Shown: positions 22,804 to 48,830 of the stretch, piece after piece | Layout: every line of letters begins with the position of its first letter | How positions within the stretch are numbered: position 1 is the first letter of the stretch | Assembly (NCBI GenBank): GCA_018818065.1 | Contig: JAHISV010000011.1 | Span: 248,001-312,000, forward strand | From: Bacteroidota bacterium | GTDB lineage: Bacteria; Bacteroidota; Ignavibacteria; Ignavibacteriales; Melioribacteraceae | DNA length: 64,000 bases | Reading direction: 5' to 3' | The notes under the pieces: model-generated | What the model was told of the DNA's origin: nothing | Seen by the model: the letters and a program-made list of their open reading frames with translations, nothing else | The model's database searches: none | Position numbers and translations under genes: made by a program

Positions 22804-25800
22804 ATGACGTTTGTTTACAATTTTATAAATAAAATATTTGTACTCACATTATTTCTTCTGTTGACGGCTGGAATTGTTTTGGGGCAGATTAATATCACTC
22901 AGGCTTTAATAGATGGTGCCACTAACGGTCCTGCTGGTGCTCTTACAATGACAGACGGTAATGATTATATTCTTACTGAAAACGTAGCTTTAACCGGAGA
23001 CTGGACAAATAATCTGAGTGCGAATTCTTTTACTCATGGTGGATTTACTGTGACATTTAGCGGTTCATCAGATCAGGACATTCTTGGTACCAATACTACA
23101 ACGTTTTCTGGTGTTACTATTAATAATTCAACCATGATAGAAGATCTTTCCGATGAGATCATAACCGGTACACTCACAGTAGCTAATTCAGAAGGTACTA
23201 CTGGCATATATATAAGTAATCAGACGATCGGAGCTGTTATTGTCTCTGGTGGATTATTGAGAACTGGTGCTGGTTCAGGTACATATATTGGTGATGTTAC
23301 TATTTCTGGTGGTACCTTATCTACTCTTGGCGATTTACGAGTAACTGGTAATTGGACGAAAACAAGCGGTACTTTCACTCATAATAGTAAAAGTACTTCT
23401 TTTCGTGGGGCAGGTGGTACTCAGACAATTTCCGGTTCTACGACATTCTACGATCTTAATTCCTGGAATACAGGTGGAGTAATTGATGCTACAGGTGCAA
23501 CAGTAGTCGTTGCTAATCGATTACATGTTATTATAGGAAAATTTATTGGTGCACCGGATGTTAACGGCGATTTAACAATAGATGTTGGTTCAGAGTTTGA
23601 GGCAAGTGGAAACTTCACACTCGCTGGTGAATTTGAAAATAATGACACTTTCGATGCAACGACAAATAGTGCAAAAATAACTTTTGATGGAAGCAGTAAT
23701 CAGTTTATTTCCGGGACGACGACCTTTTATGATGTTGAGCTGAATAATTCAACTACGACACCTAATTTTAGCAGTCATACAATTGAAGGAACATTAACCG
23801 TAATTGCGGGAAGTGCAACTGTACCAACATCACTAGGCGGATTAAGTATCGCTGGTGGAACTGTGGTGCTATCAGGCAATACCAGTATCAGTGGTGATTT
23901 CAATCATTCTAGTGGTACATTTACTCAGGGTGGTTTTCTGGTTACAATGAATGGTACTGCCGCTCAATCGATGACTGGTGCACTCAGCTTTTCAAATTTA
24001 ACAATTAACAATACTCATGTCAGTGCCCTTGTAGACGCATCCGGTGCCTCATCATTGGCAGTTTCTGGCACTCTGACAATAACTGATGGAAATTTTAAAA
24101 GCGCCTCTGATTATACCAATGTTACAATTGCTGCAGCTGGAACTCTGACCTTAAGTGGTGACATTACAGTTAGCGGCGATTGGTCTAATAGTGGGACATT
24201 ATCAGGGAATTACGAAGTGCAATTTGACGGGACTGACACGCAGAATATTACCGGTACAACGACATTCTATAATCTTGAGATTAACAATAGTCATATCAGT
24301 AATAAGGTTGTGGCATCAAGTGCTACAGTAATTGTTTCTAATAATTTTGTGATCACTGATGGTATCTTTTCAGGTGCCCCGGATTTATTAAACAGTACGA
24401 TCAGTAGTTCAGCAGGAACACTTGAACTGACAGGTAATATAAAAGTTAGTGGAAACTGGTCTAATACCAGCGGTAATCTAACTGGCAACTATGAAGTTGA
24501 ATTTGATGGCGCCAGTTCTACAATTACTGGTGCGACCACTTTTTATAATCTGAAAATTAATAATGCGTCAAACACAATTAATATTTCAACGCATTCAGTA
24601 ACTAATTTATTGACCTTGACCGCAGGTAGTGTAACAGGTGGGACAAGTTATAAGAATGTGACTCTTAACGGTGGTACTTTTATCTTAAGTGGAAATACTG
24701 CATTAAGTGGCAATTGGATAAAAAGCAGTGGTACATTCACTCCCGGAAGTAATGAAGTCGAATTTACCGGAGCCAGTTCAACAATAACCGGGGCTACAAG
24801 TTTTTATGATTTAGAAATAAATAACGCATCCAATACAATAAATATATCAGCCCACACTGTAACAAATTTACTAACTATAACTGCCGGTAGTGTAACAGGT
24901 GGAACAAGTTATAAAAATGTAACGCTTAATGGCGGTACTTTTATATTGAGTGGAAATACCACATTGACAGGTAGTTGGACAAACAGTAGTGGTACTTTCA
25001 CACCCGGAAGTTATGAAGTTGAATTTACCGGTGCTGGCTCAACAATTACCGGAGCCACAACATTTTATAGTCTGGATATTAATAATGCATCAAATACAAT
25101 TAATATCTCTGCTCATTCGGTCTCCAATACACTAACTGTGACAGCCGGAAGCGTAACTGGTGGCACTGATTATGTAAATCTTAATATTGCAGGAGGTACA
25201 TTTGTTCTTAGTGGTAATACAACGATTAGTGGAAACTGGGTTAGAACAGGAGGTTCTTTTACGCCTGGTTCGAATAAAGTTACCTTTGACGGTAGTAGCA
25301 CACAAAATATTACCGGAACAAATTCATTTTATGATTTAACTATAGCTAACACGCATGTAAGCAACAAAGTTAATGCCTCAACCGGCTCAATAACAGTGAC
25401 TAACGATCTTGCAGTTACAGATGGTATTTTCTTAAGTGCTTCTGATTATACTAACGTAACAATATCTGTCGGTGCAACATTAGAATTAAGCGGTAATATT
25501 ACCGTAAGCGGTAGCTGGACAAACAACGGTACATTTACCTCTGGAAGTAATGCGGTTACATTTGATGGCTCATCAGATCAGAACCTATTAGGAGCAACAA
25601 CATTTTACCAATTGGTAATAAATAACCCTGCAATGACAGAAAATTTATCTGCGCACACCATTAGTAATAAACTAACCGTAACAACAAGCGAAGGAACCAC
25701 TGGAATTTTAACAGGTAGTGGAACCATTCCTACGGTACAGATTATCGCAGGAAAAGTAATTTTAGGATCTGGGAACATCACAACATTATTAGATATAGAT

Positions 25801-28800
25801 GGTGGTACAGTAACATTAGGTACAGGCACCATAGCTTCGTTGGATATTGATGGTGGAACAACCACTTCTCATGCAACATCAGGCGATTTTGGAATAGTAG
25901 ATATTGCTACAGGTAGCTTAACTCTTGGCGGACCTGTTGCAATTAGCGGTAGTTTTACTAATGCCTCTGATGCTACAACTTTTATACATAATGACAAAAC
26001 TATAACATTTGATGGAGCAACTACTGTAACCGGCCCTTCTACATTTAGCGGAGTAACAATAACCGGAACTCTGACTCTGGCTAACGCAATTGTTGTTAAA
26101 GGTGACTGGACGAATTCAACAGGAACATTCACTCACGGAAGCCAAAATGTAACCTTCAGTGGTTCAGCGGCACAGGCATTAACTGGCGGAACAAATACAT
26201 TTTATAATTTGACCATTACCAGTGGTGATGTTGTTACATCATCAGGAACACTTACAGTAACAACTAATTTGTCGGTTACAACAGGTACTTTTGTCAGTGC
26301 TTCAGATTATAATAATGTAACTCTTGCAAGTGGAACCACTTTGCAATTAGCAGGAAATATTACTGTTAGTGGAACATGGACGAATAATGGTGGTTCATTG
26401 ACTGGAAGCTTTGCAGTTGAATTTGATGGTGCCGCATCGCAGTCAATCGGCGGTACGGGATCAACAACATTTTACAACCTAACTCTAAACAACTCCAATG
26501 GAGCAGTTTTAGGTATTGGTCAGAGAGTTAACAACACATTAACTCTTACTAGTGGTATAATTACTCTTGGCAACTTTGATCTTACATTTGGCGATGCCGC
26601 AACCGCGGTTGCCGGAACTTTAAGTGCTACCAAAATGATAGCCGTTACTGGCACAGGTAGTGTAATAAAAGAATTCACCGGTGCTGATCCGGCATTGTTC
26701 TTATTTCCAATAGGTGAGACAAGCGGCACAACAGAATATTCTCCATTTTCTGTAGATCTCTCCGGTGTAACTTATGGCGGGACAGGACTTGTTGCGGTTA
26801 ACGTAACAGATGCCGCGCATGGCGATGTTACCGGCGCTGATTTTCTTACCCGATACTGGAGTGTTACACAATCGAATCTAACCAGCTTTAGCGCTGCTAT
26901 TGTTGGTACATACCTGACAGCTGATATAACAGGAACAGAAGCCAGTATTTTTGGATTAAAAAGAGATGGTGGATCGAGCTGGACAAACCTTGGACTCGTA
27001 AATGCGGGTGCGAATACTATTAACGGATCTGGTTTAACAAGCTTTTCTGACTTCACAGGCGGCGGCGTTGGTGTAACAGTAACTGCCCCAAATGGTGGAC
27101 AAAGATTTCTTGTTAATAGGGTTGAAAATATAACCTGGACTTTTTACAATGTTACTAATGTGCAAATAGATTATTCAACAAATAATGGCGGTGCCTGGAC
27201 ACCAGTTATTGCAAGCACGTCTGCTGCTGCCGGGACTTATGCCTGGACTATCCCTGCAACATTAACTACGCAAGCGCTTGTTCGTGTTTCTGACGCAACT
27301 AATGCAGCCGTAGTTAATGATGTAAGCAATGCGGTTTTTACAATCGCTGATATAACTGTTACTACTCCAAATGGAGCCGAATTCTGGGAAGTAGCTTCCT
27401 CTCATGATATTGAATGGGATCAATCTGATCTTGTCACTGAAGTGCAGATAGAATATTCAACTAATACTGGTGGTTCATGGATTGTTGTTGATCCGAGCGA
27501 AGTTTCAGCAGGGACTTCAGATACATTCTCATGGACTATTCCTAATACTCCAACTGCAACTGCTCTAGTAAGAGTAACAGCACTTACTGGTGGAACTGGG
27601 TCTGATGTAAGTGATGCTGTATTCATAATCCCGGGTGTCGTAGTAGTAGCGCCAAATGGTGGTGAAGCATGGGTTTCAGGAACGAGTGAAGATATTACTT
27701 ATACGACTCCTGGCTATACAATTGGAACGGAACAGGTTACAATAACTTATTCTACAGATAATGGTGGTTCCTGGATGCCTTTAGCTACACCAGTTACAGG
27801 CGGAACATATTCCTGGACTGTTTCTGACGAGCATACATATAATGCCCTGGTAGAAATTAAAAGAGTTGCAGGTACTTCAACTGATACCAGTAATGCTGTA
27901 TTCACTATAGTGCCTCCACCTCCACCTTATGGTTCTCCATCAGCAAATGAGGTTGCAGTAACTATCGAGCCAACGTTGACTTGGTCAGCAGTAACAAATG
28001 CAGTTACTTATGAGATGCAGGTTTATTCAACAGCTACACCTAGTGAAACCGTTATTGATACAACTGGCTTGCTTCCTGCAAATCCACTCGAAATTGACTT
28101 TGAACAACTATCATGGATGGGCGGGCAAAATTATTATACACGTATGAAAAATCTTACAGGATACTTATGGAGAATGAGGACGATTGGACTTAATTCAGTT
28201 GTTGGTAATTGGTCTTCTCCAAGAAAATTTACAACGATTCAGGGCGTTACACCAACACTAACGTATCCATTAACAGGTTCAATTCTTAGTACTCCGGTAG
28301 TTCAATATTACTGGAATGTAACTATCCCTTATAATAACCTGGTATTTGAGTTATTCTCTAATACAACCGGGGATTTTACACCAATATCCGGAGAGTCACC
28401 TCTTCTTATTAACGGAGAGTTAAATACTTCCGGAAGTGGTTATTCCCCAGGGACTCTGCATTATTGGATGGTGCGTACCAAAACTCACGCTGGACAAACA
28501 TCAAGTTATTCTGCAGTGGAAAGCTTTATAACAAATGGTTTATTATCACCAATTACACTGCTTTATCCATACGATGGTATTGAGACGTTTAACAACATGC
28601 CATACGTGTATTGGCTTAATTATTTATATAGTCCTCTTGTAAAATATCAGGTAAGATATTCAAAGAATAACAGCCTGGATATTAATGATGCCCTTGATAC
28701 GGATTTTACTGATTTACCCTTAACTTTTAACTCTTATGCACAACTCGAAGATCTTGATGATGGAGCGACATACTACTGGCAGGTTGCAGTAACTAATGAC

Positions 28801-30435
28801 GGAGGAAGTACTCTGCTTTGGTCTGATCTCTTCAGTTTTACTACACCAGCATCAACGTCATCAAATACATTTTTAGCTCCAACTCCATCTTATCCGGTGG
28901 CAGGAGTAACAATATATTCAACATCCAGTACATATTATTGGATACCACAAACTATTGATGCTACGTTGCAATACCAGGTTAGGTATGGAGCAAGTAATGC
29001 TACAACTGCTGGTCAACTTGATGCTGGCGTAAACACTGCTCTTACGAGCGATTATTATATTCAGGTTGCCGGGCTTACTGGAAATACAACTTATTATTGG
29101 CAGGTTAGAACCTACAATGGCAGTTCATACTCTCCATGGTCGGTTGTTCAGACATTTAATACTGATGCCTCAATTAATGCTATCAAAACACCAATATTGC
29201 TTTCGCCTTATGACGGTCAGATAGTAAATAATTTGCAGCCAACTCTTTATTGGTATATTGATGGAAGTGGAGCAGGTTACGATTATACAGTTGTTTATAA
29301 TACCGATGGAGCACAGAATACAAACGGTAATCTTTCAGGGACATCAAATGTCCTGGGTAGCGGAGCGACTACACATCTTCTTGCGAAATTTGCAAGCGAT
29401 CTTACAAATGGAGAGACATACTACTGGCAGGTTATTGCCTCCACAGGTGGTGCTGACTCAGCATATTCATCTATAAAAAGCTTTTCGGTAAACGCGAGCA
29501 GTACTGTTAGTATTACACTCCCTATCCCGGCTTATCCGGTTGGTGGGATTGTTGTTAACACTTCTGATCCTGTAGTACATTGGGTAGTCAACGGAGCATA
29601 TGGGCACCTTGAATTCCAAATCAGATATTCAACTGACAATACTGTGTCGGGTGGTATTCTGCAAAATGGGACAGTAGATTCTGACTGGACTTCAAACTTA
29701 TCCACAGCATTAAGTGGTCTTACACCTGGTGCTACATATTACTGGCAGGTTAGAGCAAGATTAGCTTCAACTCCGGCAACTATGTCTGACTATTCGACAG
29801 TGCAGTATTTTGTTATATCTGCGGGTGCTTCTCCTGTGATGGCAATACTTGGCAGTCCTATCGATGGTGTAGGGATTAACACTGATACCCCGACCCTTTC
29901 TTGGATATTACCTATGTCAACCGAATCAACATTATCGTATGACCTGGAAATCGCAGATAATGCCGATATGACTTCGGCGGAAAAAATTACAGGTTTGACG
30001 GAAACTCAGTTCAAACATAACCTTACAATTGGTAAAAAATATTACTGGAGAGTTCGCTCAAGAAACACTGAAGGTGAATATTCTTACTATACCGGTGTGG
30101 GTGATTTTGATATTAAGAGCAATATTACTGAAACTGAAGATGAGGAAGCACTTCCTACAGAATTCTCCATCGATCAGAATTATCCGAATCCATTCAATCC
30201 TTCAACCTCAATAAGATTTGGTTTACCTGAGGCATCGAAGGTAAGGTTAAGTATTTATAATATACTTGGCGAGGAAATAAAGACACTCGTAAATGAAGAA
30301 TTAGATGCAGGATACCATCACGTAATATGGAATGCTGATAATAATAATGGGTCCAAGGTTGTTAGTGGTGCGTATTTCTATAAAATAGTTTCAGGCAACA
30401 ATCTAATAACAAAGAAGATGTTATTTATTAAATAA
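22804..30435 (+). CDS. giant protein 1: beta-repeat passenger, Kre9-like domains, FN-like stalk, T9SS sorting domain
   Basis: 2543 residues from the ATG at 22804, seven bases after TTTGGAGG; an in-frame TTG at 22792 lies within that site. Signal peptide 1 to about 27. Residues about 35-1270 hold some thirteen repeats of the form SGN-x-x-SGNW...TTFYNLxINN, probably a beta-helix or similar solenoid. Next is a block with FLFPIGE and YWSVTQ, then three Ser/Thr-rich Kre9/KNH-like domains (about 1420-1703: APNGG, STNNGG, YAWTIP patterns). Fibronectin-like repeats with YYWQV (about 1707-2437) and a sorting domain (QNYPNPFNPSTSIRF, ending KKMLFIK) close the protein. It should be exported by Sec and T9SS to the cell surface as a long adhesin-like fibre; ligand unknown. 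A microprotein gene follows after 16 bases. Confidence 0.88.
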   Translation: MTFVYNFINKIFVLTLFLLLTAGIVLGQINITQALIDGATNGPAGALTMTDGNDYILTENVALTGDWTNNLSANSFTHGGFTVTFSGSSDQDILGTNTTTFSGVTINNSTMIEDLSDEIITGTLTVANSEGTTGIYISNQTIGAVIVSGGLLRTGAGSGTYIGDVTISGGTLSTLGDLRVTGNWTKTSGTFTHNSKSTSFRGAGGTQTISGSTTFYDLNSWNTGGVIDATGATVVVANRLHVIIGKFIGAPDVNGDLTIDVGSEFEASGNFTLAGEFENNDTFDATTNSAKITFDGSSNQFISGTTTFYDVELNNSTTTPNFSSHTIEGTLTVIAGSATVPTSLGGLSIAGGTVVLSGNTSISGDFNHSSGTFTQGGFLVTMNGTAAQSMTGALSFSNLTINNTHVSALVDASGASSLAVSGTLTITDGNFKSASDYTNVTIAAAGTLTLSGDITVSGDWSNSGTLSGNYEVQFDGTDTQNITGTTTFYNLEINNSHISNKVVASSATVIVSNNFVITDGIFSGAPDLLNSTISSSAGTLELTGNIKVSGNWSNTSGNLTGNYEVEFDGASSTITGATTFYNLKINNASNTINISTHSVTNLLTLTAGSVTGGTSYKNVTLNGGTFILSGNTALSGNWIKSSGTFTPGSNEVEFTGASSTITGATSFYDLEINNASNTINISAHTVTNLLTITAGSVTGGTSYKNVTLNGGTFILSGNTTLTGSWTNSSGTFTPGSYEVEFTGAGSTITGATTFYSLDINNASNTINISAHSVSNTLTVTAGSVTGGTDYVNLNIAGGTFVLSGNTTISGNWVRTGGSFTPGSNKVTFDGSSTQNITGTNSFYDLTIANTHVSNKVNASTGSITVTNDLAVTDGIFLSASDYTNVTISVGATLELSGNITVSGSWTNNGTFTSGSNAVTFDGSSDQNLLGATTFYQLVINNPAMTENLSAHTISNKLTVTTSEGTTGILTGSGTIPTVQIIAGKVILGSGNITTLLDIDGGTVTLGTGTIASLDIDGGTTTSHATSGDFGIVDIATGSLTLGGPVAISGSFTNASDATTFIHNDKTITFDGATTVTGPSTFSGVTITGTLTLANAIVVKGDWTNSTGTFTHGSQNVTFSGSAAQALTGGTNTFYNLTITSGDVVTSSGTLTVTTNLSVTTGTFVSASDYNNVTLASGTTLQLAGNITVSGTWTNNGGSLTGSFAVEFDGAASQSIGGTGSTTFYNLTLNNSNGAVLGIGQRVNNTLTLTSGIITLGNFDLTFGDAATAVAGTLSATKMIAVTGTGSVIKEFTGADPALFLFPIGETSGTTEYSPFSVDLSGVTYGGTGLVAVNVTDAAHGDVTGADFLTRYWSVTQSNLTSFSAAIVGTYLTADITGTEASIFGLKRDGGSSWTNLGLVNAGANTINGSGLTSFSDFTGGGVGVTVTAPNGGQRFLVNRVENITWTFYNVTNVQIDYSTNNGGAWTPVIASTSAAAGTYAWTIPATLTTQALVRVSDATNAAVVNDVSNAVFTIADITVTTPNGAEFWEVASSHDIEWDQSDLVTEVQIEYSTNTGGSWIVVDPSEVSAGTSDTFSWTIPNTPTATALVRVTALTGGTGSDVSDAVFIIPGVVVVAPNGGEAWVSGTSEDITYTTPGYTIGTEQVTITYSTDNGGSWMPLATPVTGGTYSWTVSDEHTYNALVEIKRVAGTSTDTSNAVFTIVPPPPPYGSPSANEVAVTIEPTLTWSAVTNAVTYEMQVYSTATPSETVIDTTGLLPANPLEIDFEQLSWMGGQNYYTRMKNLTGYLWRMRTIGLNSVVGNWSSPRKFTTIQGVTPTLTYPLTGSILSTPVVQYYWNVTIPYNNLVFELFSNTTGDFTPISGESPLLINGELNTSGSGYSPGTLHYWMVRTKTHAGQTSSYSAVESFITNGLLSPITLLYPYDGIETFNNMPYVYWLNYLYSPLVKYQVRYSKNNSLDINDALDTDFTDLPLTFNSYAQLEDLDDGATYYWQVAVTNDGGSTLLWSDLFSFTTPASTSSNTFLAPTPSYPVAGVTIYSTSSTYYWIPQTIDATLQYQVRYGASNATTAGQLDAGVNTALTSDYYIQVAGLTGNTTYYWQVRTYNGSSYSPWSVVQTFNTDASINAIKTPILLSPYDGQIVNNLQPTLYWYIDGSGAGYDYTVVYNTDGAQNTNGNLSGTSNVLGSGATTHLLAKFASDLTNGETYYWQVIASTGGADSAYSSIKSFSVNASSTVSITLPIPAYPVGGIVVNTSDPVVHWVVNGAYGHLEFQIRYSTDNTVSGGILQNGTVDSDWTSNLSTALSGLTPGATYYWQVRARLASTPATMSDYSTVQYFVISAGASPVMAILGSPIDGVGINTDTPTLSWILPMSTESTLSYDLEIADNADMTSAEKITGLTETQFKHNLTIGKKYYWRVRSRNTEGEYSYYTGVGDFDIKSNITETEDEEALPTEFSIDQNYPNPFNPSTSIRFGLPEASKVRLSIYNILGEEIKTLVNEELDAGYHHVIWNADNNNGSKVVSGAYFYKIVSGNNLITKKMLFIK
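24511..25293 (+). repeat. three tandem 261-bp repeats inside giant gene 1
   Basis: Copies begin at 24511, 24772 and 25033, an exact 87-codon period. Each encodes NNASNTINIS, TAGSVTGGT and FVLSGNT-like segments. The DNA differs mostly at third codon positions while the protein is kept, so the copies are old and selected for structure rather than recent slippage. Confidence 0.85.
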
Positions 30436-30451
30436 TCGATCGGAACAGATT

Positions 30452-30544
30452 ATGAACAAATTTGGCGCAGCTTTTTTTGTATTCATGTTGGCGGTGGTAA
30501 TGGCTTTGGCTTTAATCGCTTGTCAAAGTTATTTCCTTAGCTGA
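30452..30544 (+). CDS. 30-residue microprotein 1 of the giant-protein cassettes
   Basis: A complete ATG-to-TGA frame 16 bases after giant gene 1. The product starts MNKFG, has an unbroken hydrophobic core, and ends ALALIACQSYFLS. The last 12 residues are essentially those of the five other microproteins at 33936, 36764, 39842, 44470 and 48738; the N-terminal half is the most divergent of the set. L-I-A-C fits a lipobox, so it may be a lipoprotein with a seven-residue mature part, or a one-span membrane peptide. The ribosome site is weak (CGGAAC). Function unknown. Confidence 0.78.
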   Translation: MNKFGAAFFVFMLAVVMALALIACQSYFLS

Positions 30545-30650
30545 GAAATGCTGAACAGGGGAAAGCTAACAAATGAATTTATTGTGAACCATGTGGTTCT
30601 AGAAACAAAAAGACCAGCAAAAAAACATATTTATTTATTAAAGGTGCAAT

Positions 30651-33600
30651 ATGAAAAATAAGTTAACAATTTTTAATCTGCTTGTCGCGTTCATCTTTGT
30701 TGGATTAACAACAATGCAAGCGCAGACAATGGATGTTCAGAGACCAGTTTCAACGTCAATTGCTGACGGTGGATCAGATGTCGTAGGTAATCAGGCAACT
30801 GGAACTCAGTTTACTCTTACCTATACGATTCTGGAGACCGCGAGCAGTAACTTGGATATTACAGCTTTTGCCGCATCAGGCGAAAGCAATTGTACTATCG
30901 ATGCAATTACTCCTTCGGCTGCATTTACACAAACTCTGAATAATTCAAGTATGACAGTTGATGTTGATGTTACCGTCCTTACTACAGGAGCTTTCAGTTT
31001 TGATATTGATATAACAAATACAGCAGGAGATTTAAATTACGACATCGCTGTTTCGGGAACTGGAATTCCTGGTGAAATTGATATTCAAAGGCCCGTCGCT
31101 TCAACAATTGCGGATGGAGCATCTGATGCTATTGGGACTTATTATGCCGGATCGGCATTTGTTCTGACCTATACAATAGAAGAATTAATTTCATCAGATT
31201 TAATTGTGTCCAATGCAGTATCAGCTTCTCCTTCGAATTGTACAGTTAATTCAATCACACCTTCTGCGGCTTTTTCGCAAACTCTTAATGGGTCTACAAT
31301 GACATTTGATGTAAATGTAACACCAACAGCAGCAGGAGTATTTAGTTTTGAACTTGATATTACCAGCGATGATTCTGACGAGGGGAACTACGATCTGACT
31401 GTTTCAGGCACGGCAGTTGCTCTTACACCAGCTGGTGGGGCAGTGGATGTATCAATTCAACCATTATTTGAATGGGTTGATCCTGCTTCCGGTATTGCTG
31501 TTTCAAAAAATGCAAGTTATAATCCAGCAGTGGATTCACCAGGGACAAGTGAAATAGAGGACAATTCTATTTCAAGTGTTACGACTTACGATGCTTCCAC
31601 TCAACCAGTTACTCTATACAACAATACTACTTACTATTGGTGGGTTTATGATGATGGTCTAACGAGTTGGGTGTCAATGGGTTCATTTACAACAGCGCAA
31701 AATGTAACTCCTTTCTTAGCTGCGCCTGTTGGTGGATTACAGCTTAACTCAGAAACCGCTCAATTATACTGGAATACTTCTGGGCATATAGGCGATTTTT
31801 TGTTTGATATCTTTTACAGTACAACACAAAAGTTAACTTATTCGGGTGATACCCCGCAATTAATGAATCTTGATCATGAGATTGCATATATAAATAATCT
31901 TACTCCGGGTGCAACATATTATTGGCAGGTTAGAGTAAAAGATTCTAATAATAATATTCTTGGTTATTCTACAGTTGAAAGTTTTATAACATATGGGGTT
32001 TTAACAAAGCCTTTGCCAACATATCCTTTGGATGATTCTGAAACTTATACCGTAGATCCTTACCTTTACTGGACGAGTTATTTTTATAGTACTTTGATTC
32101 AATACAAAGTTAGATACAGTACTACAGCAGATGCTTCAGATTCCAGCCCAAGTGATGGTTATCTTGATAATGGAGCCAGTGAAACACCACTAGACTTTGA
32201 TTTGTATGTTCAATTAACCGGGTTAACCGGTGGAACACCATACTATTGGCAGGTAGCCGCTACAAATGATGGTGGCAGTACCTATGTATGGTCAGATATA
32301 TTTACTTTTAATACTCCTGCAACTTTATCTGGTATAGTAACATCACCCACTCCTTCATATCCGGTTGGCGGAATAACTATGTATTCTTCTTCTGTTACAT
32401 TCTACTGGCAGCCTACAAGTTATAATGCATCACTGCAATATGAAGTGAGATATGCCAAAGATGATAATACAATTGACGGAAATGGGATGTTAACAGCTGG
32501 AACATCAATGTCGCTTACCAGCAGTACATTCAGACAGATTGCAGGACTTGAAGGCGACGCGACATATTACTGGCAGGTTAGGGCATATAATGGATCTGCA
32601 TTTAGTCCATGGTCAGTAGCTGATAATTTTGTAACGGATGAATCTGTACTTAATGTACAGACTCCAATCCTGCTTACACCGGGTGACGGACAATTGGTAA
32701 CAACTCTAGAACCCACTCTTTACTGGTATGTAAATGGTAACCCCAACGGATATACATTTACTGCTTTGTACAATAGTGATGGTGCGCAGGACTTTAACGG
32801 TAATTTGAGTGGCACCACAAACGTGCTTGGCGGAGCTACTACAACAGATAGCTACTATGCTAAATTTTCAACTGCTCTTGCAGATGGAGGTACATATTAT
32901 TGGCAAATCAAAGCTGAAAAAGGACTTGTTACAAAGTACTCATCAATTAGAAGCTTCTCTGTAAATGGGGAATCAACAGCAACAACTGCTGAAATTCCAA
33001 TCCCGGCATACCCGATCGGTGGATTTACAGTTATTACATCTGATCCGGTTCTTAATTGGGTAATTAATGGTTCTTATTCTAATCTTGAATTCGAAGTTCT
33101 CTACTCAACTGATAATTCAACTTCAGGGGGAGTACTGGTAAACAGTGGTACAGCCACAACAGCATGGAATTCGAACCTATCAGTAGCATTAAGTAATTTA
33201 ACACCCGGCGCAGTTTATTATTGGCAGGTTAGATCAAGGGTTGCCTCATCTCCTGCAACTTTGTCAAATTATTCAGCGGTTGAGTATTTTATTGTATCTG
33301 CTGGCGCTGGTCCATCAATGGCAATTCTGGGTAGTCCGGTAGGAGTAGAAGTTAAAACAACTGATCCTGTTTTATCCTGGGTCATTCCTTCTCTCTCTTC
33401 TTCGGAATTAACATACGAAGTTGAAATAGCTGAAGATCCATCAATGCTTGGTGCTCAGACAATAGGTGATATTACATCAAATAATGTTCAGGTAAATGTA
33501 TCAGATGGAAAAACCTATTATTGGAGAGTAAGATCAAAAACTGATAATGGAGAATATTCATCTTATACTGGCAGTGGTTCATTTGGCGTTGATCAAAATG

Positions 33601-33935: not shown

Positions 33936-34028
33936 ATGACGAAAGTAGGATTTACAATATATATTATTTTATTCTCAGCCATTATTATGCTTGCGTTAAT
34001 CGCTTGTCAAAGTTTTTTGCTGAGCTAA
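33936..34028 (+). CDS. 30-residue microprotein 2 of the giant-protein cassettes
   Basis: ATG at 33936 follows GGAG by eight bases and is 24 bases after giant gene 2. The product begins MTKVGFTIY and ends LALIACQSFLLS, with an all-hydrophobic middle. The only charge is Lys3. Ser26 and Ser30 are encoded by AGY codons, as in copy 1, whereas copies 3-6 use TCN. Possible lipobox L-I-A-C with mature CQSFLLS. Confidence 0.83.
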   Translation: MTKVGFTIYIILFSAIIMLALIACQSFLLS

Positions 34029-36763: not shown

Positions 36764-36856
36764 ATGACTAAAGTTGGAATGACAATATATATGATTTTAT
36801 TCTCTGCGATAATAATGCTGGCCCTTATGGCTTGCCAGTCATTTTTCTTATCGTAA
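36764..36856 (+). CDS. 30-residue microprotein 3 of the giant-protein cassettes
   Basis: ATG at 36764 follows AAAGGAG by eight bases, an ideal ribosome site, 24 bases after giant gene 3. The product begins MTKVGMTIYM and ends LALMACQSFFLS. It matches the other five copies in length, Lys3, Gly5 and the C-terminal motif. Ser26 is TCA and Ser30 TCG, codons shared with copy 4. An antisense open frame on the other strand here is a shadow. Confidence 0.85.
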   Translation: MTKVGMTIYMILFSAIIMLALMACQSFFLS

Positions 36857-37283: not shown

Positions 37284-39818
37284 ATGAATAACAAGTTTAC
37301 AATTTTTTTGGTGTCTGTTATATTTACTGTTTTTTGTAATATTAATATCCAGGCGCAATCTCCTGCAGATTTAGATGTAGGAGTTTCAATCCAACCGATC
37401 TTTACTTCTCCAGCAGAGGCATATGGGATTGCAGTTTCGATGAATCCTAACTATGATGCTGATACAGAGGATCCAGCTGATAATGAGTTGGAAGTCCTTT
37501 TTGGACAAACTACTACTTATGATGCTACTGCACAATCAACTCTTCTTCTAAATAATACAAAGTATTATTGGTGGTACCTGAATGATGTTGCAGGTACATG
37601 GGTATACGTAGGAGGATTTACAACTACTGTTGGTGCTACAATAGGATTAATTGCACCAACCGGTGGAATTGAACTTAATTCCGATATTGCTACACTTTCC
37701 TGGAATTCTACTGTTTCCGGCGGTAACGAATTATATGATGTTTTCTTCAGTGATGCTGATCCGGGAGATACATTCGCAGGGACTACTCCTAATGAAGCAG
37801 ATTTAACTGTAAAAACTTTTGAATTAAATAACCTTCCTCCAAATGCCACATATTATTGGCAGGTGAGGGTTAAAACTGCTACTGGTGCTATTGTAAGTTA
37901 TTCTGATGTTGAGACTTTTAGAACTTCGGGTGATTTAATGATACCAGTTCCTGCTGCACCAGTACAAGGTCTTGTTCTTAACAGCACATCTCCATATTTG
38001 TATTGGGGAAGTTACAATAATCATCCTGATATTGTTTATCAGGCATGTTATTCACTAACTGAAACTATTGGGGGTGTTACTTCTTTCCCATATCAATTAA
38101 ATGATGGTGTTACTACAAGTTGGACACACAACAGATATATTCAGGTTTCAGACCTAACACCTGGAGAAGTTTATTATTGGCAGGTTAGAGCATCAGATGA
38201 TGGTGGTGTTGCCTCATTTTCAGATTGGTCAGATCCAGTAAGTTTTGAGATTTATGGAACAGGTGCTGCCAGTGCACCCATACCGGTTTATCCGTCTGGA
38301 GGAATATCAATATATGCCAGTTCTGTTATGACGTATTGGTACATGTTAGGCAATAGCTCAGGTTTACAATACATCGTTCGGTATGGAACAGATTCTACAA
38401 TGGATGGCACGGACCCAACAATGTTAGAAAATGCTGATAATACAACAGCAACAAGTAGTATGTATAAGCAACTTGCACATTTAGTTGATGGAGAAACATA
38501 TTACTGGCAAGTACAGACAACTGGTGGTGCCTGGTCTGATGTTCATAGTTTTATTGTAAAAACATCAGCAGAAACACAAAGAATACCTATTCCTTATCAT
38601 CCTGTAAACAACTATGTAGAAACAACACGCAGACCTACTCTATATTATTATGTCTTTGGATACAGTTACGGTTTGGAATACGAAGTACAGTATTCTAACT
38701 TACTTAATGCTGGTGCACTTGATAACCCAACGCTTTTAGGACCAACATCAGATCTTTATATTAACATTGAAACAGATTTAGATCTTAACACAACATATTA
38801 TTGGCAGGTAAGATCAATTAGTGGAACTACCCCTTCAGACTGGTCAGAGATATCTACTTTCGAAATTGATCAGAATGCGGAAAATGTTTCTATAATTCCA
38901 ACACCTTCCTACCCTGTGGGTGGAACTGTCGTTGATTCCAAAACACCAGATTACAATTGGGTTGTTAACGGAAATTACTCCCATCTCGAATTCCAGGTAA
39001 GATATGCAACACATGATAACACCACAGATGGCGAATTAGACGCACCATTTGCAGCAGTTACTGGTTGGTCAACTGATTTGTCCGTTACACAGGATGTTAA
39101 CTTAATTCCTGGAGCTATGTATTACTGGCAGGTGAGAAGCAGATTAGCCTCTACACATGACGGCGAATCAAAATTCTCTACTCTTGCAAATTTTGTCGTT
39201 TCTGCTGGAGCAGCCCCGGTAATGGTTATCCTTGGCAGCCCTGTTGCTGCAGTTCAGATCGGTACAAGTACACCAACATTCTCGTGGATATTGCCGACTC
39301 AATCTACTTCTGAACTCTCATATGAGGTTGAGATTGCTGATAATGAACAAATGGCATCACCACAGGTAATGAATGCTGATAATCTTTCTGTTGAAGCTCA
39401 AAATCTTACTGATGGTCAGCAATATTTTTGGCGAGTTCGTTCAAAAACGGATGCAGGTGAATATTCACTCTATTCAGGTCAAGCTTCGTTTACCGTTAAC
39501 TCGAGCATTACAACTCTTGAAGAGGTTAGTGGAATACCAATAGAATTTAATGTTAGTCAAAATTATCCTAATCCTTTCAATCCTTCTACAACAATCAAAT
39601 TCTCTCTGCCGGCAGCAGAAAAAGTGAGCGTTAAAGTTTTCGATCTTTTAGGTCGTGAAATGATAACACTTCTTGATACTCAATTAGAAGCCGGTAATCA
39701 CTCTGTTGTTTGGAACGGTGAAAATCAATTTGGTAATGCAGTTAGTACCGGTATTTATTTCTACAAAGTAAAATCAGGTAGCAATGTTGTAACAAGAAAA
39801 ATGATTTTAATGAAATAG
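37284..39818 (+). CDS. giant protein 4: FN-like repeat protein with T9SS sorting domain
   Basis: 844 residues. Signal peptide 1 to about 25 (ending NIQAQ). The first domain (VGVSIQPIFTSP, TKYYWWYLND) parallels a domain of giant protein 2. The remaining fibronectin-like repeats belong to the unit-B type shared with proteins 5 and 6: IPVYPSGGISIYASSV, YGTDSTMDGTDPTML and RPTLYYYVFGYSYGLEYEVQ. The sorting domain has QNYPNPFNPSTTIKF and ends RKMILMK. TTGGAGGG precedes the ATG. It has its own promoter and its own terminator. Confidence 0.88.
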   Translation: MNNKFTIFLVSVIFTVFCNINIQAQSPADLDVGVSIQPIFTSPAEAYGIAVSMNPNYDADTEDPADNELEVLFGQTTTYDATAQSTLLLNNTKYYWWYLNDVAGTWVYVGGFTTTVGATIGLIAPTGGIELNSDIATLSWNSTVSGGNELYDVFFSDADPGDTFAGTTPNEADLTVKTFELNNLPPNATYYWQVRVKTATGAIVSYSDVETFRTSGDLMIPVPAAPVQGLVLNSTSPYLYWGSYNNHPDIVYQACYSLTETIGGVTSFPYQLNDGVTTSWTHNRYIQVSDLTPGEVYYWQVRASDDGGVASFSDWSDPVSFEIYGTGAASAPIPVYPSGGISIYASSVMTYWYMLGNSSGLQYIVRYGTDSTMDGTDPTMLENADNTTATSSMYKQLAHLVDGETYYWQVQTTGGAWSDVHSFIVKTSAETQRIPIPYHPVNNYVETTRRPTLYYYVFGYSYGLEYEVQYSNLLNAGALDNPTLLGPTSDLYINIETDLDLNTTYYWQVRSISGTTPSDWSEISTFEIDQNAENVSIIPTPSYPVGGTVVDSKTPDYNWVVNGNYSHLEFQVRYATHDNTTDGELDAPFAAVTGWSTDLSVTQDVNLIPGAMYYWQVRSRLASTHDGESKFSTLANFVVSAGAAPVMVILGSPVAAVQIGTSTPTFSWILPTQSTSELSYEVEIADNEQMASPQVMNADNLSVEAQNLTDGQQYFWRVRSKTDAGEYSLYSGQASFTVNSSITTLEEVSGIPIEFNVSQNYPNPFNPSTTIKFSLPAAEKVSVKVFDLLGREMITLLDTQLEAGNHSVVWNGENQFGNAVSTGIYFYKVKSGSNVVTRKMILMK

Positions 39819-39841: not shown

Positions 39842-39934
39842 ATGTCAAAAGTTGGTATGACAGTATTTATGATTCTTTTCTCTGCGATAATAATGTTGGC
39901 GCTTATCGCATGTCAGTCATTCTTTTTATCGTAG
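39842..39934 (+). CDS. 30-residue microprotein 4 of the giant-protein cassettes
   Basis: ATG at 39842, preceded by AAGGAGATGGAG, 23 bases after giant gene 4. The product begins MSKVGMTVFM and ends LALIACQSFFLS. Length and C-terminal motif are identical to the consensus of the set. The Ser26/Ser30 codons (TCA, TCG) match copy 3. One hydrophobic span with a possible lipobox at Cys24. Confidence 0.85.
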   Translation: MSKVGMTVFMILFSAIIMLALIACQSFFLS

Positions 39935-40072: not shown

Positions 40073-40113
40073 TTGACAATAATATTAAAAAACAATATTT
40101 TTTTTTGCCAGCC
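40073..40113 (+). promoter_or_regulatory. promoter and start of leader for giant genes 5-6
   Basis: TTGACA (40073-40078), 17 bases, TATTTT (40096-40101), then TTTTTGCCAGCC (GCCAGCC at 40107-40113), the same arrangement as at gene 4. The leader would be about 350 bases. Between 40114 and 40397 I see no gene and no recognisable riboswitch. Confidence 0.7.
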
Positions 40114-40397: not shown

Positions 40398-40460
40398 ATG
40401 ACTAAAAAAGACCAGCCGAGCTTTAAGATTTTTATAAACAAACAATGGGTGCTTTTATGA
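40398..40460 (+). CDS. possible 20-residue leader peptide overlapping giant gene 5
   Basis: ATG at 40398 follows a very strong ribosome site (GGAGGGAGG) by two to three bases. The 20 codons (MTKKDQPSFKIF..., ending QWVLL) stop at TGA, which overlaps the ATG of giant gene 5 as ATGA. This arrangement is typical of translational coupling. The giant gene itself has only a modest AGGTG-like site. No family recognised; it could also be chance, since the spacing between ribosome site and start is short. Confidence 0.38.
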   Translation: MTKKDQPSFKIFINKQWVLL

Positions 40461-43400
40461 AAAAATTAACTACATGTTTTTCAATGGTAATACTTTTATT
40501 CTATGCAAATGTTTTTGCACAGAGTCCTGCCGTATCACCAATTGATGCGGATGTTACAGTAGCGCGAACAACTGCTACTTTTACATGGACAGATATTGGA
40601 ACGGATAACTTCGAGAATCGATACGACTTTGAGGTTTACACCGATGCCGGCTATACCATTCTGCATGAAGCTGGACAAACTGCAATTGCTGATGTTACTA
40701 CAACAATTTCGGCAGCAATGGCATTTAACACGACTTACTATTGGCAGGTAACCAATACTGATTTGAATGATGATGGAACTTATGATGATAGCGATGCGCC
40801 AGCACAATTCTCATTAACCATAGTAATGGACACACCAACACTGGACGCTGAAACCACACCGGTTGCTCTGGATGAGACCCTTACATGGTCAGCCGCTGCA
40901 GCAGCAAATGTTGAGTACGAAGTTCAGGTTGATGATGGAACTGGTTACGTTTCTGTTGTAACAGGCTTAACTGTTCTCAGTTATCAATTTCAGGCGGGTG
41001 AGTTAGATCCTAATGTTGAATATGATGTTAAGATAATAGCCAGTTCAACACTAGCTGCACCTCCCGATGATGTAGAATCAAATGTCATCACATTTATAAC
41101 GGCTTTAACCGATCCGGTCTTAACCGCTTTACCTGCAACAGCTGAAATTAACTCAACTCTAAACTGGACTGCCTCAGCAGCGGCCGATGTTGAATACGAA
41201 GTTCAGGCTGATGATGGTGGCAGTTTTGCTTCCGTGGTAACCGGACTTACCACAACCAGTTATAAATTTCAACCAGGGGATTTAACCGGAAACCAGGCTT
41301 ATGATGTGAAAATCATAGCAAGTTCTTCACTAACAGGTGTTACTATTGTTGAATCAAATGAGATAAGTTTTACAACCACCAACGTTGGTCTTGATGGAAT
41401 TACATATGATTATAATAGTGGTAGTCCTTCAGCTCTTGGTAGTGTATTAGTAGAATTTACGAATACAGTTCCACCCTTTGAAGTTTATTCAACTACATCG
41501 GATGTTACAACAGGTAGTTATCAACTTTATGTTCCTTCAGGTAATTATGATATTACTTTTAGTAAAACAGGGTATCAAACATTAAGTTATACTAATACTA
41601 ATCTCTTCTCATACTATTCCGGGACAAACATTTATTTGGGCGCCGCTGTTGTAATTACAGCTCCAACCGGTGTTACACAAACAGCATTTGATGCTAACTG
41701 GGAATCTTTCACCGGAGCTACTGAGTATCATATTTATGTCTCAACGGATCCTGCTTGTACAGGCAGCTATGTCGCCGGATATGATGGACTTGACGTAGGT
41801 AACGTTTTAACAGTTAACGTAACAGGTCTTACACCGGGAACTACTTATTATTACAGAGTTTTAGCTTACGACATCTATTCTTATTATTATTCTTCAGATG
41901 TTGAGTCGGTAAGTACTGTAGCACCCCCACCCGTTCTGGTTGCTCCTGCAGAGTATGCTACCGGTGTATCCATTGAACCGACTTTTGAGTGGGATGCCTC
42001 GGCAATTACTTCTGCAATAGAGCATTTTCAGCTTCAGGTTTCTACTGACAACGATTTTTATCCTGTTACAAGGATTGCCTATGAAAACCTGGATATAACT
42101 CCGGAAGAGTTTGATATGCGAGAGGTTTCTGAATTTCTTGAAAGCGGCACAGTTTATTACTGGAGAGTTGCAGCTGTTATAGGCTCTACTGTAGGTGAAT
42201 GGTCCGCACCATGGAGTTTTACAACAACTGCTGGATGTTATGTTTATATAATTGGACCTGGTAATGGAATCGAACTTGGTTCTGATGAAGCGCCATTGCA
42301 GTGGAATTCCAACGCACAGGGTGGAAATGAATTATACGATTTATTTTATGGTACGTCAGATCCCGGACCAGGTGGATTTGCAGGTACAACACCACAAGAA
42401 ACTGATTTAACAGATAAAACATTTTTACTAGAAAATATACCTCAGGGCACAACATATTATTGGCAGGTGCGTGTTAAAACCTCAGCAGGTGCGATTTGTG
42501 GTTATTCAGCGGTCGCTAGCTTTAAATCAAGCGGTGAATTATTAATACCGATTCCTGCAGCACCGGTTCAGGATCTGGTAATCAACACAACATCTCCTAA
42601 TTTATATTGGGTAAGTTATGCATATCATCCTGATATTGCTTATAGGGTGTGTTACGCTTTAACGGATGCAGTTGAGGCTAGTACTCCTTATCAACTGAAT
42701 GATGGTACAGAGGAGGTCACATCCTGGACGCATAATAAATATATTCAACTTACTAATCTGGTGCCCGGCGAACAATATTTTTGGCAGGTACAAGCTACAA
42801 GTGATGGTGGTACTACCATGTCAGAGTGGTCAGCTCCAGAAAGTTTTCAAATTTATGGAAGCAGCGTAGCCAGTGCGCTTATACCGATTTATCCGTCCGG
42901 GGGAATACCAATATATTCTACTTCAGTCCTTACGTACTGGTACTCAGTTAGTGGCAGTACAGGTTTACAATACGTTGTTCGTTACGGAACAGATCCTACA
43001 ATGGACGGCGGAGATCCCACAATGTTGGCAACAGCAACAGAGACTAATCCAACCAGTAGCCCATACAAACAATTGGCTCACCTGACTGATGGTGAAACCT
43101 ACTACTGGCAGGTAAAGAGAGTTGGTGGTGCATGGTCTGAGGTAAGCAGCTTTGTAGTTAAAGCATCTGCTGCCACACAAAGTATTCCAATACCACATTC
43201 ACCTATTAATGGTGATGTTGTCACTTCATTAAGACCAACATTATCATACTACTGCCTTGGCTACAGCTATGGATTTGAATATGAAGTTTGGTATTCAGAT
43301 AGTGATGATGAAAGTGGTGGTGAACTTACTGGTGTGGGTGGTACACTTACTAAATTACCGGAAACGACAGACCTATACACTTATATAATAGATGACTTGA

Positions 43401-44449
43401 CTGATGGTATACCATATTATTGGCAAGTGAGATCAATAAATGGTGGTGTACCTTCTGACTGGTCAGAAATTGTCTCTTTTGAAGTTGATCCAACAGCTAC
43501 TTATTTACCAATAGTCCCTACGCCTTCTTATCCTACAGGAGGAGTGATTGTTGATTCAAAAACTCCTGACTTCAGTGTTCTGGTTAGTGGAAATTATACA
43601 GGTCTGGAATATTTAGTACGTTATGCAACACATAATAACTTGAATGTAGATGGAGAACTTGAGGCAAATTACGAAGAGACAGAATGGTCGAGCAGTATGG
43701 ACGTTGCCTTTGATAATGGGAATGATCCAGATCTAATCCCTGGTGTTATGTATTACTGGCAGGTAAAATCAAGATTAGCAGCTAATACGCCCGAAGAATC
43801 TGATTTCTCAACTCTCGCCAACTTTGTCGTTGACGCCGGCGCTTCACCAGTTATGGTTATACTTGGCAGCCCGGTAGGTAATGTTCAGATTGGTACGAGT
43901 GCACCAACATTCTCATGGATACTACCAACTCAATCAACCTCTGAGCTCTCATTTGAAGTTGAAATTGCAAATAACGAGCAGATGCTTTCTGCCACTGTTA
44001 TTAATGCAAATGATTTGTCGGTAGAGACTCAAAATTTGCAGGATGGAGAGCAATATTTTTGGAGAGTTCGTTCAAAAACTGATGCTGGTGACTATTCATT
44101 ATATTCAATGCCGACATCATTTACAGTAAATTCAAGCATCACAGATGTTGAGGCAGTAGAAGAACTGCCTACTGACTTCAGATTAGATCAGAACTATCCT
44201 AACCCGTTTAACCCTAGTACAACAATAAAGTACTCTATACCAAATGCAGAGCATGTTTCGATTAAGGTATATGATATGCTGGGTTGTGACGTAGCTACTC
44301 TATTCAATGGGCAGTCCCAAGCCGGCATTCATACTGTTATATGGAACGGAACGGATAGTAACGGAGATATAGTAAACTCTGGTGTTTACTTTTACAGGAT
44401 AGTAAGTGGTAGCAATGTAGCAATTAAGAAAATGCTGTTATTAAAATAA
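40457..44449 (+). CDS. giant protein 5: FN3 domains, carboxypeptidase-regulatory-like domain, FN-like stalk, T9SS sorting domain
   Basis: 1330 residues from the ATG at 40457. An in-frame ATG at 40445 is rejected because the homologous upstream sequence of gene 6 reads ATGGGTGCTTAA, that is, a stop before the start. Signal peptide 1 to about 22 (ending VFAQ). Three FN3-type domains (to about 310) precede a carboxypeptidase-regulatory-like beta domain (about 313-395; GSYQLYVPSGNYDITFSKTG), another FN3, then unit-B repeats (STDNDFYP; YGTDPTMDGGDPTML; LSYYCLGYSYGFEYEV). The sorting domain has QNYPNPFNPSTTIKY and ends IKKMLLLK. Confidence 0.88.
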   Translation: MKKLTTCFSMVILLFYANVFAQSPAVSPIDADVTVARTTATFTWTDIGTDNFENRYDFEVYTDAGYTILHEAGQTAIADVTTTISAAMAFNTTYYWQVTNTDLNDDGTYDDSDAPAQFSLTIVMDTPTLDAETTPVALDETLTWSAAAAANVEYEVQVDDGTGYVSVVTGLTVLSYQFQAGELDPNVEYDVKIIASSTLAAPPDDVESNVITFITALTDPVLTALPATAEINSTLNWTASAAADVEYEVQADDGGSFASVVTGLTTTSYKFQPGDLTGNQAYDVKIIASSSLTGVTIVESNEISFTTTNVGLDGITYDYNSGSPSALGSVLVEFTNTVPPFEVYSTTSDVTTGSYQLYVPSGNYDITFSKTGYQTLSYTNTNLFSYYSGTNIYLGAAVVITAPTGVTQTAFDANWESFTGATEYHIYVSTDPACTGSYVAGYDGLDVGNVLTVNVTGLTPGTTYYYRVLAYDIYSYYYSSDVESVSTVAPPPVLVAPAEYATGVSIEPTFEWDASAITSAIEHFQLQVSTDNDFYPVTRIAYENLDITPEEFDMREVSEFLESGTVYYWRVAAVIGSTVGEWSAPWSFTTTAGCYVYIIGPGNGIELGSDEAPLQWNSNAQGGNELYDLFYGTSDPGPGGFAGTTPQETDLTDKTFLLENIPQGTTYYWQVRVKTSAGAICGYSAVASFKSSGELLIPIPAAPVQDLVINTTSPNLYWVSYAYHPDIAYRVCYALTDAVEASTPYQLNDGTEEVTSWTHNKYIQLTNLVPGEQYFWQVQATSDGGTTMSEWSAPESFQIYGSSVASALIPIYPSGGIPIYSTSVLTYWYSVSGSTGLQYVVRYGTDPTMDGGDPTMLATATETNPTSSPYKQLAHLTDGETYYWQVKRVGGAWSEVSSFVVKASAATQSIPIPHSPINGDVVTSLRPTLSYYCLGYSYGFEYEVWYSDSDDESGGELTGVGGTLTKLPETTDLYTYIIDDLTDGIPYYWQVRSINGGVPSDWSEIVSFEVDPTATYLPIVPTPSYPTGGVIVDSKTPDFSVLVSGNYTGLEYLVRYATHNNLNVDGELEANYEETEWSSSMDVAFDNGNDPDLIPGVMYYWQVKSRLAANTPEESDFSTLANFVVDAGASPVMVILGSPVGNVQIGTSAPTFSWILPTQSTSELSFEVEIANNEQMLSATVINANDLSVETQNLQDGEQYFWRVRSKTDAGDYSLYSMPTSFTVNSSITDVEAVEELPTDFRLDQNYPNPFNPSTTIKYSIPNAEHVSIKVYDMLGCDVATLFNGQSQAGIHTVIWNGTDSNGDIVNSGVYFYRIVSGSNVAIKKMLLLK

Positions 44450-44469
44450 TCTATTGGAGGAATACGACC

Positions 44470-44562
44470 ATGACAAAGGTTGGATTTACGATATACATGA
44501 TTTTATTTTCAGCGATAATAATGCTGGCGCTAATTGCTTGCCAATCATATTTCTTATCCTGA
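44470..44562 (+). CDS. 30-residue microprotein 5 of the giant-protein cassettes
   Basis: ATG at 44470, nine bases after GGAGG and 20 bases after giant gene 5. The product begins MTKVGFTIYM and ends LALIACQSYFLS. Ser26 is TCA and Ser30 TCC, as in copy 6. A longer open frame from 44454 in another frame covers it but has no ribosome site or family likeness. One hydrophobic span, possible lipobox at Cys24. Confidence 0.84.
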   Translation: MTKVGFTIYMILFSAIIMLALIACQSYFLS

Positions 44563-44575
44563 AAGTGAATTTTAA

Positions 44576-44605
44576 GGGGCGGATTAGCTCTAGGCTTAAC
44601 GCCCC
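44576..44605 (+). other. hairpin without T tract between cassettes 5 and 6
   Basis: GGGGCG (44576-44581) and CGCCCC (44600-44605) pair around an 18-base loop and are followed by ATTTG only. It resembles the terminators after cassettes 4 and 6 but lacks the T run, so read-through into gene 6 is likely. Confidence 0.55.
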
Positions 44606-44670
44606 ATTTGCTTGTTTAGGTATAACAACCGGGTTTTAAGATTTTTTATAAACAACATATGGGTGCTTAA

Positions 44671-48714: not shown

Positions 48715-48737
48715 TCCATCTGGAGGAAATGACGACT

Positions 48738-48830
48738 ATGACAAAGGTTGGATATACAATATATATGATTTTATTTTCAGTGGTAGTTATGCTGGCTCTC
48801 ATTGCTTGCCAATCATTTTTCTTATCCTGA
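48738..48830 (+). CDS. 30-residue microprotein 6 of the giant-protein cassettes
   Basis: ATG at 48738, eleven bases after GGAGG and 23 bases after giant gene 6; an in-frame ATG at 48729 is too close to the site. The product begins MTKVGYTIYM, has three valines where the other copies have AII, and ends LALIACQSFFLS. Ser26 TCA and Ser30 TCC are shared with copy 5. It closes the tandem cluster and is followed by a strong terminator. Confidence 0.85.
   Translation: MTKVGYTIYMILFSVVVMLALIACQSFFLS

Follow-up and report, generated by a model that had tools for sequence, protein, structure and literature searches.

Directly behind each of six tandem genes for giant secreted proteins in a Melioribacteraceae genome lies a frame of 30 codons. 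We were particularly interested in whether these small frames are genes, how firmly they are tied to the large ones, and what their products may do. The window, which is the whole stretch of DNA analyzed, comprises 64,000 nt of contig JAHISV010000011.1.

Six giant genes and their microprotein genes

The array has the following layout.

22804..30435, + strand: giant 1, 2543 aa; fn3/Ig-like domains; T9SS type A sorting domain at residues 2460-2539
30452..30544, + strand: predicted micro-lipoprotein 1, 30 aa; lipobox Cys24; the most divergent among the six
30651..33911, + strand: giant 2, 1086 aa; fn3/Ig-like domains; sorting domain at residues 1003-1083
33936..34028, + strand: predicted micro-lipoprotein 2, 30 aa
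34184..36739, + strand: giant 3, 851 aa; fn3/Ig-like domains and sorting domain
36764..36856, + strand: predicted micro-lipoprotein 3, 30 aa
36873..36901, no strand assigned: hairpin 3′ of microprotein gene 3; terminator-like on the - strand, with a T run also after it on the + strand
37284..39818, + strand: giant 4, 844 aa; fn3/Ig-like domains and sorting domain
39842..39934, + strand: predicted micro-lipoprotein 4, 30 aa
39946..39970, + strand: terminator-like hairpin 3′ of microprotein gene 4
40445..44449, + strand: giant 5, 1334 aa; fn3/Ig-like domains and sorting domain
44470..44562, + strand: predicted micro-lipoprotein 5, 30 aa
44671..48714, + strand: giant 6, 1347 aa; N-terminal choice-of-anchor D domain at residues 26-137; fn3/Ig-like domains and sorting domain
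48738..48830, + strand: predicted micro-lipoprotein 6, 30 aa
48844..48864, + strand: G+C-rich hairpin and T run 3′ of microprotein gene 6; seen by eye, absent from the computed hairpin list

The frame of giant 1 has an alternative opening at TTG 22792. All six giants scored above the cut-offs of TIGR04183 (NCBIfam, T9SS type A sorting domain) and PF18962 (Pfam), giant 1 barely so for the latter (27.2 against 27). The word giant, which a sequence-only reading of this DNA had used for all of them, describes proteins of up to 2543 aa, but the span starts at 844 aa. That reading had placed the small frames at 30452, 33936, 36764, 39842, 44470 and 48738, and their positions, their length of 30 residues and their spacing of 16-24 nt were confirmed. 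Each consists of an ATG, 30 codons in total and a stop, and the gaps from giant stop to microprotein start are 16, 24, 24, 23, 20 and 23 nt in units 1-6. The pairs duplicate as a cassette, so finding six of them side by side does not amount to six independent events.

The small frames evolve as proteins

Length alone proves nothing, because the two strands of the window contain 24 frames that open with ATG and are exactly 30 codons long. When the own genome was searched with a profile, the six microproteins were recovered at E <= 4e-16, followed by only two matches, with E > 1. Residues M1, K3, G5, L19, A20, L21, A23, C24, Q25, S26, L29 and S30 are invariant in all six. The description of the set as near-identical holds for five copies, which are 83-90% identical to the one at 44470; the first, at 30452, shares only 50% with it.

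Among the 15 pairs of window microproteins pS was 0.69 and pN 0.20, a contrast absent from the other two frames (pS/pN 0.25/0.31 and 0.14/0.35). Divergence at the three codon positions was 0.29, 0.11 and 0.53 over 533 pairs from 71 copies, a set made of those among the 76 profile matches that were taken at 29-30 aa and E < 1e-4. The small frames thus evolve as proteins. Chance frames are ruled out by the own-genome profile search and the codon-level selection together. The same selection rules out an RNA element in place of a protein, and no Rfam match reached its gathering score within 22000-49500.

Pfam and NCBIfam models gave no significant match to the family; in Pfam, ten families matched below threshold only (best E 0.013). 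Seven unknown PHROGs families were each matched by one or two of 30 members (best E 1.8e-4), which we take as likeness of hydrophobic stretches. The earlier remark that no described system of this form was known agrees with these searches and with searches of openly licensed papers, in which no title or abstract opening that came up described such a protein.

A lipobox at the conserved ending

The conserved ending, which had been pointed out before, is real, but the lipobox L-A-x-A-C within it had been overlooked. With a lipobox at this place most of the 30 residues are probably signal peptide, and the product is predicted to be a lipoprotein of which 6-7 residues would remain after maturation. 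It would be smaller than any conserved lipoprotein known to us.

Sixty-six distinct microproteins were compared (without L108 and the 22-residue copy of L104, with L227 added). A PS51257-like pattern, written for this analysis, fitted 62 of them, including the window's six; of the four sequences that it missed, three have no Cys and one has a poorly delimited start. Cys is present in 63/66 and Ala at -1 in 64/66, and the tail after the Cys position has five residues in 26 sequences and six in 40. The positions from -5 to 0 around the Cys, except -2, are among the best conserved, while the core from -20 to -9 varies among hydrophobic residues; an aromatic tail is the other conserved part. In three microproteins linked to giants, Ser or Ala replaces the Cys. 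A strict lipoprotein role would not allow such copies, and each of the genomes concerned also has a Cys copy. A function as amine acceptor for the T9SS sortase was rejected: Lys follows the Cys in only one of the 66 sequences, at +1, and the N terminus of a lipoprotein should be acylated, which also counts against it.

Linkage of microprotein genes to T9SS cargo genes

By profile search the family is present in 47 of 79 genomes of the Melioribacteraceae, in about 20 genera. In the same order it was found in one genome outside the family, and evenly drawn genome samples of the class and the phylum yielded no credible match among the best 20 candidates per genome. Plasmid DNA searched with window positions 30300-30700 gave no match. 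Fifty-three neighborhoods, defined by profile matches at E <= 0.003 in short frames with G173 added, held 76 matches or 75 copies, the two halves of the broken L108 copy being counted once. Besides this split frame, decayed copies carry a TGA (G391:C41:13043) or a TAG (G395:C4:10720).

Of the 75 copies, 72 lie directly 3′ of a gene ending in a T9SS sorting domain; the microprotein gene accompanies T9SS cargo genes of a certain class. In the own genome none of the 74 other sorting-domain genes has one. The sequence-only reading had set the absence of the microprotein beside such genes in close relatives against its own proposal; this was checked, and the pairing held. It is real and recurs in relatives, but to call it constant was an overstatement, since 20 of 88 evaluable homologous giants lack the microprotein, and the sorting domains of some of these are of the same kind. 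The tally was made by hand and reads 68/20/6, one of the 68 having a microprotein with an internal stop. For the 20, the DNA was read over up to 330 nt behind 16 giants and over some 57 nt behind two; L242 shows no sorting-domain end by pattern, and G161:C19:97501 was judged by genome search alone.

Across the 79 genomes, in hand-entered counts, microprotein and giant module occurred together in 44, the giant module alone in five, the microprotein alone in three and neither in 27 (Fisher p 6e-13, a value that ignores kinship and partly reflects shared descent). The five genomes with a giant module and no detected microprotein (G073, G303, G332, G049 and G230, the giants of the last two lying at contig ends) suggest that the giant can do without it. 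Identities of microproteins and sorting domains were correlated (Mantel r 0.45, 0/999 permutations), again with kinship ignored and shared descent contributing.

In the smaller tree of sorting domains, in which few forks are resolved, linked and unlinked rows cluster apart (four changes, 75 unlinked rows); the unlinked rows all come from the own genome, so this clustering is partly one of genomes. In the larger tree, likewise with few resolved forks, 12 changes suffice for the 69 linked rows, where shuffling gives a mean of 52, and 16 unlinked giants are scattered (14 changes; mean after shuffling 15.5). Linked sorting domains cluster, yet form no single clade.

Transcription and translation signals

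An SD-like site was found at 62 of 74 microprotein genes, against 23% in shuffles. Terminator-like hairpins lie within 140 nt 3′ of 54 out of 70, and in nine of the 70 gaps 5′ of them (2/350 in shuffles). Within the window a hairpin with a T run stands behind the microprotein gene in only three of six units. From these signals, the two genes of each unit are most likely transcribed together, giant first and microprotein second. That the microprotein is a leader for the next gene is ruled out by the hairpins behind the 54.

Possible role of the microprotein

The own genome has a T9SS (SprA_N match), three signal peptidase II family matches and eight PorV-family matches above cut-off. PF11751 had no match there, but control genomes gave none either, so this negative does not establish absence.

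Judging from these sequences, we give about an even chance to the reading that the product is a micro-lipoprotein dedicated to its cargo, the giant co-transcribed with it, and that it helps this giant to be exported or retained. The signal would take it through Sec, its Cys would be lipidated and signal peptidase II would remove the signal, so that the peptide C-[QH]-x-x-[YF]-[FL]-(x) would remain, anchored by its lipid. At the outer membrane this lipopeptide would act as an accessory dedicated to the giant made together with it. Its aromatic tail would most likely dock on the sorting domain of the cargo or on a PorV-type shuttle barrel, and docking may help release, retention or surface anchoring. 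A giant without its own microprotein may be served by a neighbor's copy, much as orphan type B cargos use a shared shuttle. The microprotein may also be a chaperone, an anchor or an assembly factor. More tentatively, a class of type A T9SS cargo may come with a lipid cofactor of its own. This lipidated peptide, 6-7 residues long, would decide hand-over or holding of the cargo at the outer membrane, and the route would run in parallel to the general one through PorV and the sortase; the paper excerpts consulted contain no description of such a route for type A cargo.

It is rather unlikely that the product stays uncleaved in the inner membrane as a single helix, N terminus inside and short tail outside, monitoring or regulating export of the giant. 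AlphaFold2 gave one helix over residues 3-29 (mean pLDDT 86.8, pTM 0.36), which says little for so short a peptide, and the three natural Cys-less copies keep the helix-forming core and the tail; however, conservation around the Cys with a variable hydrophobic core resembles a lipoprotein signal peptide. It is improbable that the product is a lysis lipoprotein patterned on those for colicins and serving release or the induction of vesicles. The gene layout is similar to that of colicin operons, where a tiny lipoprotein gene also lies 3′ of the gene of a large exported protein, but the T9SS already exports the cargo, and a tail of 5-6 residues after the Cys is much shorter than in lysis proteins. 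Nine of 30 members matched Pfam Lysis_col (PF02402) below threshold (best E 0.09), matches that are not significant and that a lipobox alone could yield, and the family is not assigned to it. Less probable still is a peptide signal, either the lipopeptide or a fragment of the signal peptide, released and sensed: enterococcal pheromones derive from lipoprotein signals, and conservation both around the Cys and in the aromatic tail would suit such a use, but a signal has no need of a tie to a cargo gene, and no receptor gene was noticed beside the array within the window. A functionless hitchhiker duplicated with the giant is very improbable, for although cassette duplication accounts for six pairs in one array and decayed copies exist, purifying selection, a near-fixed length and the spread over genera of the family speak against it.

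Comparison with known systems

For a dedicated accessory, SprF-like partner genes directly 3′ of T9SS cargo are a precedent, as described in excerpts of PMC12618676. In Flavobacterium johnsoniae sprB-sprF, one accessory gene likewise lies directly 3′ of the cargo gene, SprB resembles the giants as a very large repetitive surface protein, and some cargos of SprF/PorP-like systems are orphans that share another's partner (excerpts of PMC12618676 and PMC9143113). In those systems an outer-membrane barrel of 14 strands is the partner of type B cargo, whereas here a lipoprotein-like peptide of 29-30 aa goes with type A cargo; the 30 aa product and its cargo type place the family outside that system. 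As far as these excerpts go, type A cargo is handled by a single common route, through PorV; partner genes dedicated to a cargo and placed immediately 3′ of its gene are described for type B.

LptM (YifL) is comparable as a small lipoprotein: it binds the large LPS translocon of the outer membrane, aids the maturation of that complex and so illustrates what a lipoprotein of small size may do. Its mature tri-acylated form of 5888 Da, however, is many times a peptide of 6-7 residues (excerpts of PMC10567701). Five of 30 members matched the LptM model NF047847 without significance (best E 0.047), and the family is not assigned to it. In the excerpted Melioribacter roseus genome paper, Por and FN3 domains appear in a legend on sugar-cleaving enzymes, and no small partner appears there (PMC3534657).

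As a conserved companion of type A giants, a micro-lipoprotein would represent a partner of a new kind; the genes, for 29-30 residues, form a family outside the coverage of Pfam and NCBIfam. In this little-studied group of bacteria, genes for giant secreted proteins often have such a microprotein gene directly behind them.

Array, coding evidence and transcript layout

The array in the window comprises the following features.

22804-48714, + strand: six tandem giant genes (giants 1-6); the products measure 844 to 2543 aa, contain fn3/Ig-like domains and all have a T9SS type A sorting domain
16-24 nt behind each giant: six putative micro-lipoprotein frames (micros), each starting at ATG and exactly 30 codons long

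The 30-codon frames described in the sequence-only reading at 16-24 nt behind the six giants were found behind each of them. They share M1, K3, G5, L19, A20, L21, A23, C24, Q25, S26, L29 and S30. Inspected by eye, the N termini of the six giants resemble Sec signals. Because 24 ATG frames of just this length occur in the window (both strands counted), the length by itself says little, and the case for the micros rests on likeness and selection. For the six micros, pS was 0.69 and pN 0.20 in the coding frame, and pS/pN was 0.25/0.31 and 0.14/0.35 in the other two frames. Over 533 pairs from 71 micro copies, pS was 0.67 and pN 0.20, with divergences of 0.29, 0.11 and 0.53 at codon positions 1, 2 and 3. 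A Shine-Dalgarno-like site was present upstream of 62 of 74 copies (shuffles, 23%), and no Rfam family matched 22000-49500 of the window.

Of 70 micros, 54 have a terminator-like hairpin no more than 140 nt downstream and 9 have one in the preceding gap, indicating that the micro probably belongs to the transcript of its giant. With the same detector, a hairpin followed the stop of 26/74 sorting-domain genes without a micro in the window's own genome and appeared in 2/350 shuffles. Three of the six window micros are followed by a hairpin and T run.

Three consecutive sodium-coupled transporter genes (two Na/Ala symporters, one SNF family) lie beside the array at 17230-22221 on the - strand. 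Genes for a fatty acid hydroxylase and a glycosyl hydrolase of family 9 lie directly behind it (48990-51337).

Distribution of the micros and their pairing with giants

A profile search of the own genome returned the six window micros and no more, although this genome has 81 matches to the sorting domain. A 30-copy profile (E <= 0.1) matched 53 of 79 genomes of the window's family, noise included. The 40-copy profile, run on 164 genomes at E <= 0.005, matched 47 of the 79, one of them (G327) by a broken copy, and three other genomes of the order, of which G173 was credible and two were long-frame matches. In samples of the class (391 genomes) and the phylum (395), other matches were weak and, with few exceptions, lay in long frames; the strongest outside the family and order set (genome G167, E 1.4e-4) was in a 151-residue frame resembling an ordinary lipoprotein. 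Decaying copies were also seen, with an internal TGA (G391:C41:13043, neighbourhood L107), an internal TAG (G395:C4:10720, L104) or a split frame (L108).

The sequence-only reading had named absence of the micro next to such genes in close relatives as evidence against it. In 53 fetched neighbourhoods plus the window, 70 of 75 micros lay 6-152 nt downstream of a same-strand gene with a sorting-domain-like end, and two more were likewise placed on reading (L099, and an L081 copy that follows a broken frame). One lay at a contig end (L111), and two were placed otherwise: in L100 the sorting-domain gene is downstream of the micro, and the L108 micro is broken. An additional copy found later, outside the 75 (L227), was also linked, that is, directly behind a sorting-domain gene. 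No micro-like frame followed any of the own genome's 74 sorting-domain genes outside the window; behind two, a stray short frame contained a lipobox-like stretch but was unlike the micro family.

The claim of constant pairing held only in part. By a gene-by-gene hand tally, 68 giants had a micro, but 20 had none, and 6 were not judgeable. Some arrays contain one giant lacking a micro (G106:C109, G324:C214, G241:C1 and G418:C91), and none was detected in the giant-bearing genomes G073, G303 and G332. The micro is therefore either an accessory rather than a strict need, or able to act in trans.

When giant 6 was used as query against 70 linked proteins, 67 aligned over about 315 or more residues, to the C terminus, and many over about 850 residues; their N-terminal parts differ. 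The other three (L093, L094 and L115, the last cut by a contig end) aligned over only 97-127 residues. A FlgD-like loop, defined by a pattern that we wrote, occurred in 64 of 69 distinct linked sorting domains, in 9/75 unlinked domains of the own genome and in 5/16 unlinked giants. The fn3 module of the giants was found in 49 of the 79 family genomes (E <= 1e-30): 44 had module and micro, 5 the module without micro, 3 the micro alone and 27 neither. The micros form a real, conserved gene family that has no Pfam or NCBIfam match and is linked to one class of giants among the type A T9SS cargo.

In two giants of L109 and a 787-residue frame of L081, the last strand of the sorting domain is preceded by a short insert rich in Ser and Gly, which most homologues seen lack.

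Predicted lipoprotein character

Residue statistics were taken from 66 distinct micro sequences. The third position is Lys in most, and the hydrophobic core varies among hydrophobic residues. Judged from its residues, the conserved end is a lipobox: relative to the Cys (63/66; Ser in 2, Ala in 1), position -4 is A or S in all 66, -3 is L in 59, and -1 is A in 64 and S in 2. The tail is exactly 5 residues in 26 and 6 in 40, beginning with H or Q in 56 and carrying Y or F at +4 in 58. A PS51257-like pattern fitted 62 of the 66. Together with three matches to the signal peptidase II family that exceed the cut-off in the own genome (C1:149359, C15:188691, C15:176339), these features make a mature lipidated peptide of 6-7 residues likely. 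An AlphaFold2 model gave one helix (residues 3-29), which would fit a signal peptide and a membrane anchor alike.

Three copies whose lipobox Cys is replaced by Ala or Ser (G029:C56:181999, L069; G079:C31:441002, L097; G343:C30:92596, L227) are a fair objection to the lipoprotein reading. They still sit behind a sorting-domain giant, and each of the three genomes also has a Cys copy. The lipoprotein nature of the micro is strongly predicted.

Possible role

A SprF-like shuttle gene sits directly downstream of type B T9SS cargo (PMC12618676; see also PMC9143113); in F. johnsoniae, 9 of 12 type B genes adjoin one and three orphans use one common shuttle (PMC12618676). This is the nearest precedent in layout for a micro behind a type A giant. 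For type A domains, PorV is reported to recognise every one (PMC12618676). Compared with the SprF, LptM and colicin lysis families, the micro qualified as a member of none. In the own genome, eight matches to the PorV family exceed the curated cut-off and SprA is present, so it may have several T9SS shuttles, by cargo class. The tiny lipoprotein could then tune one of these shuttles to its giants, a role somewhat like that of LptM, which helps the LPS translocon (PMC10567701). Our best guess, with belief and doubt about evenly balanced, is that the micro is an export or anchoring partner of the giants.
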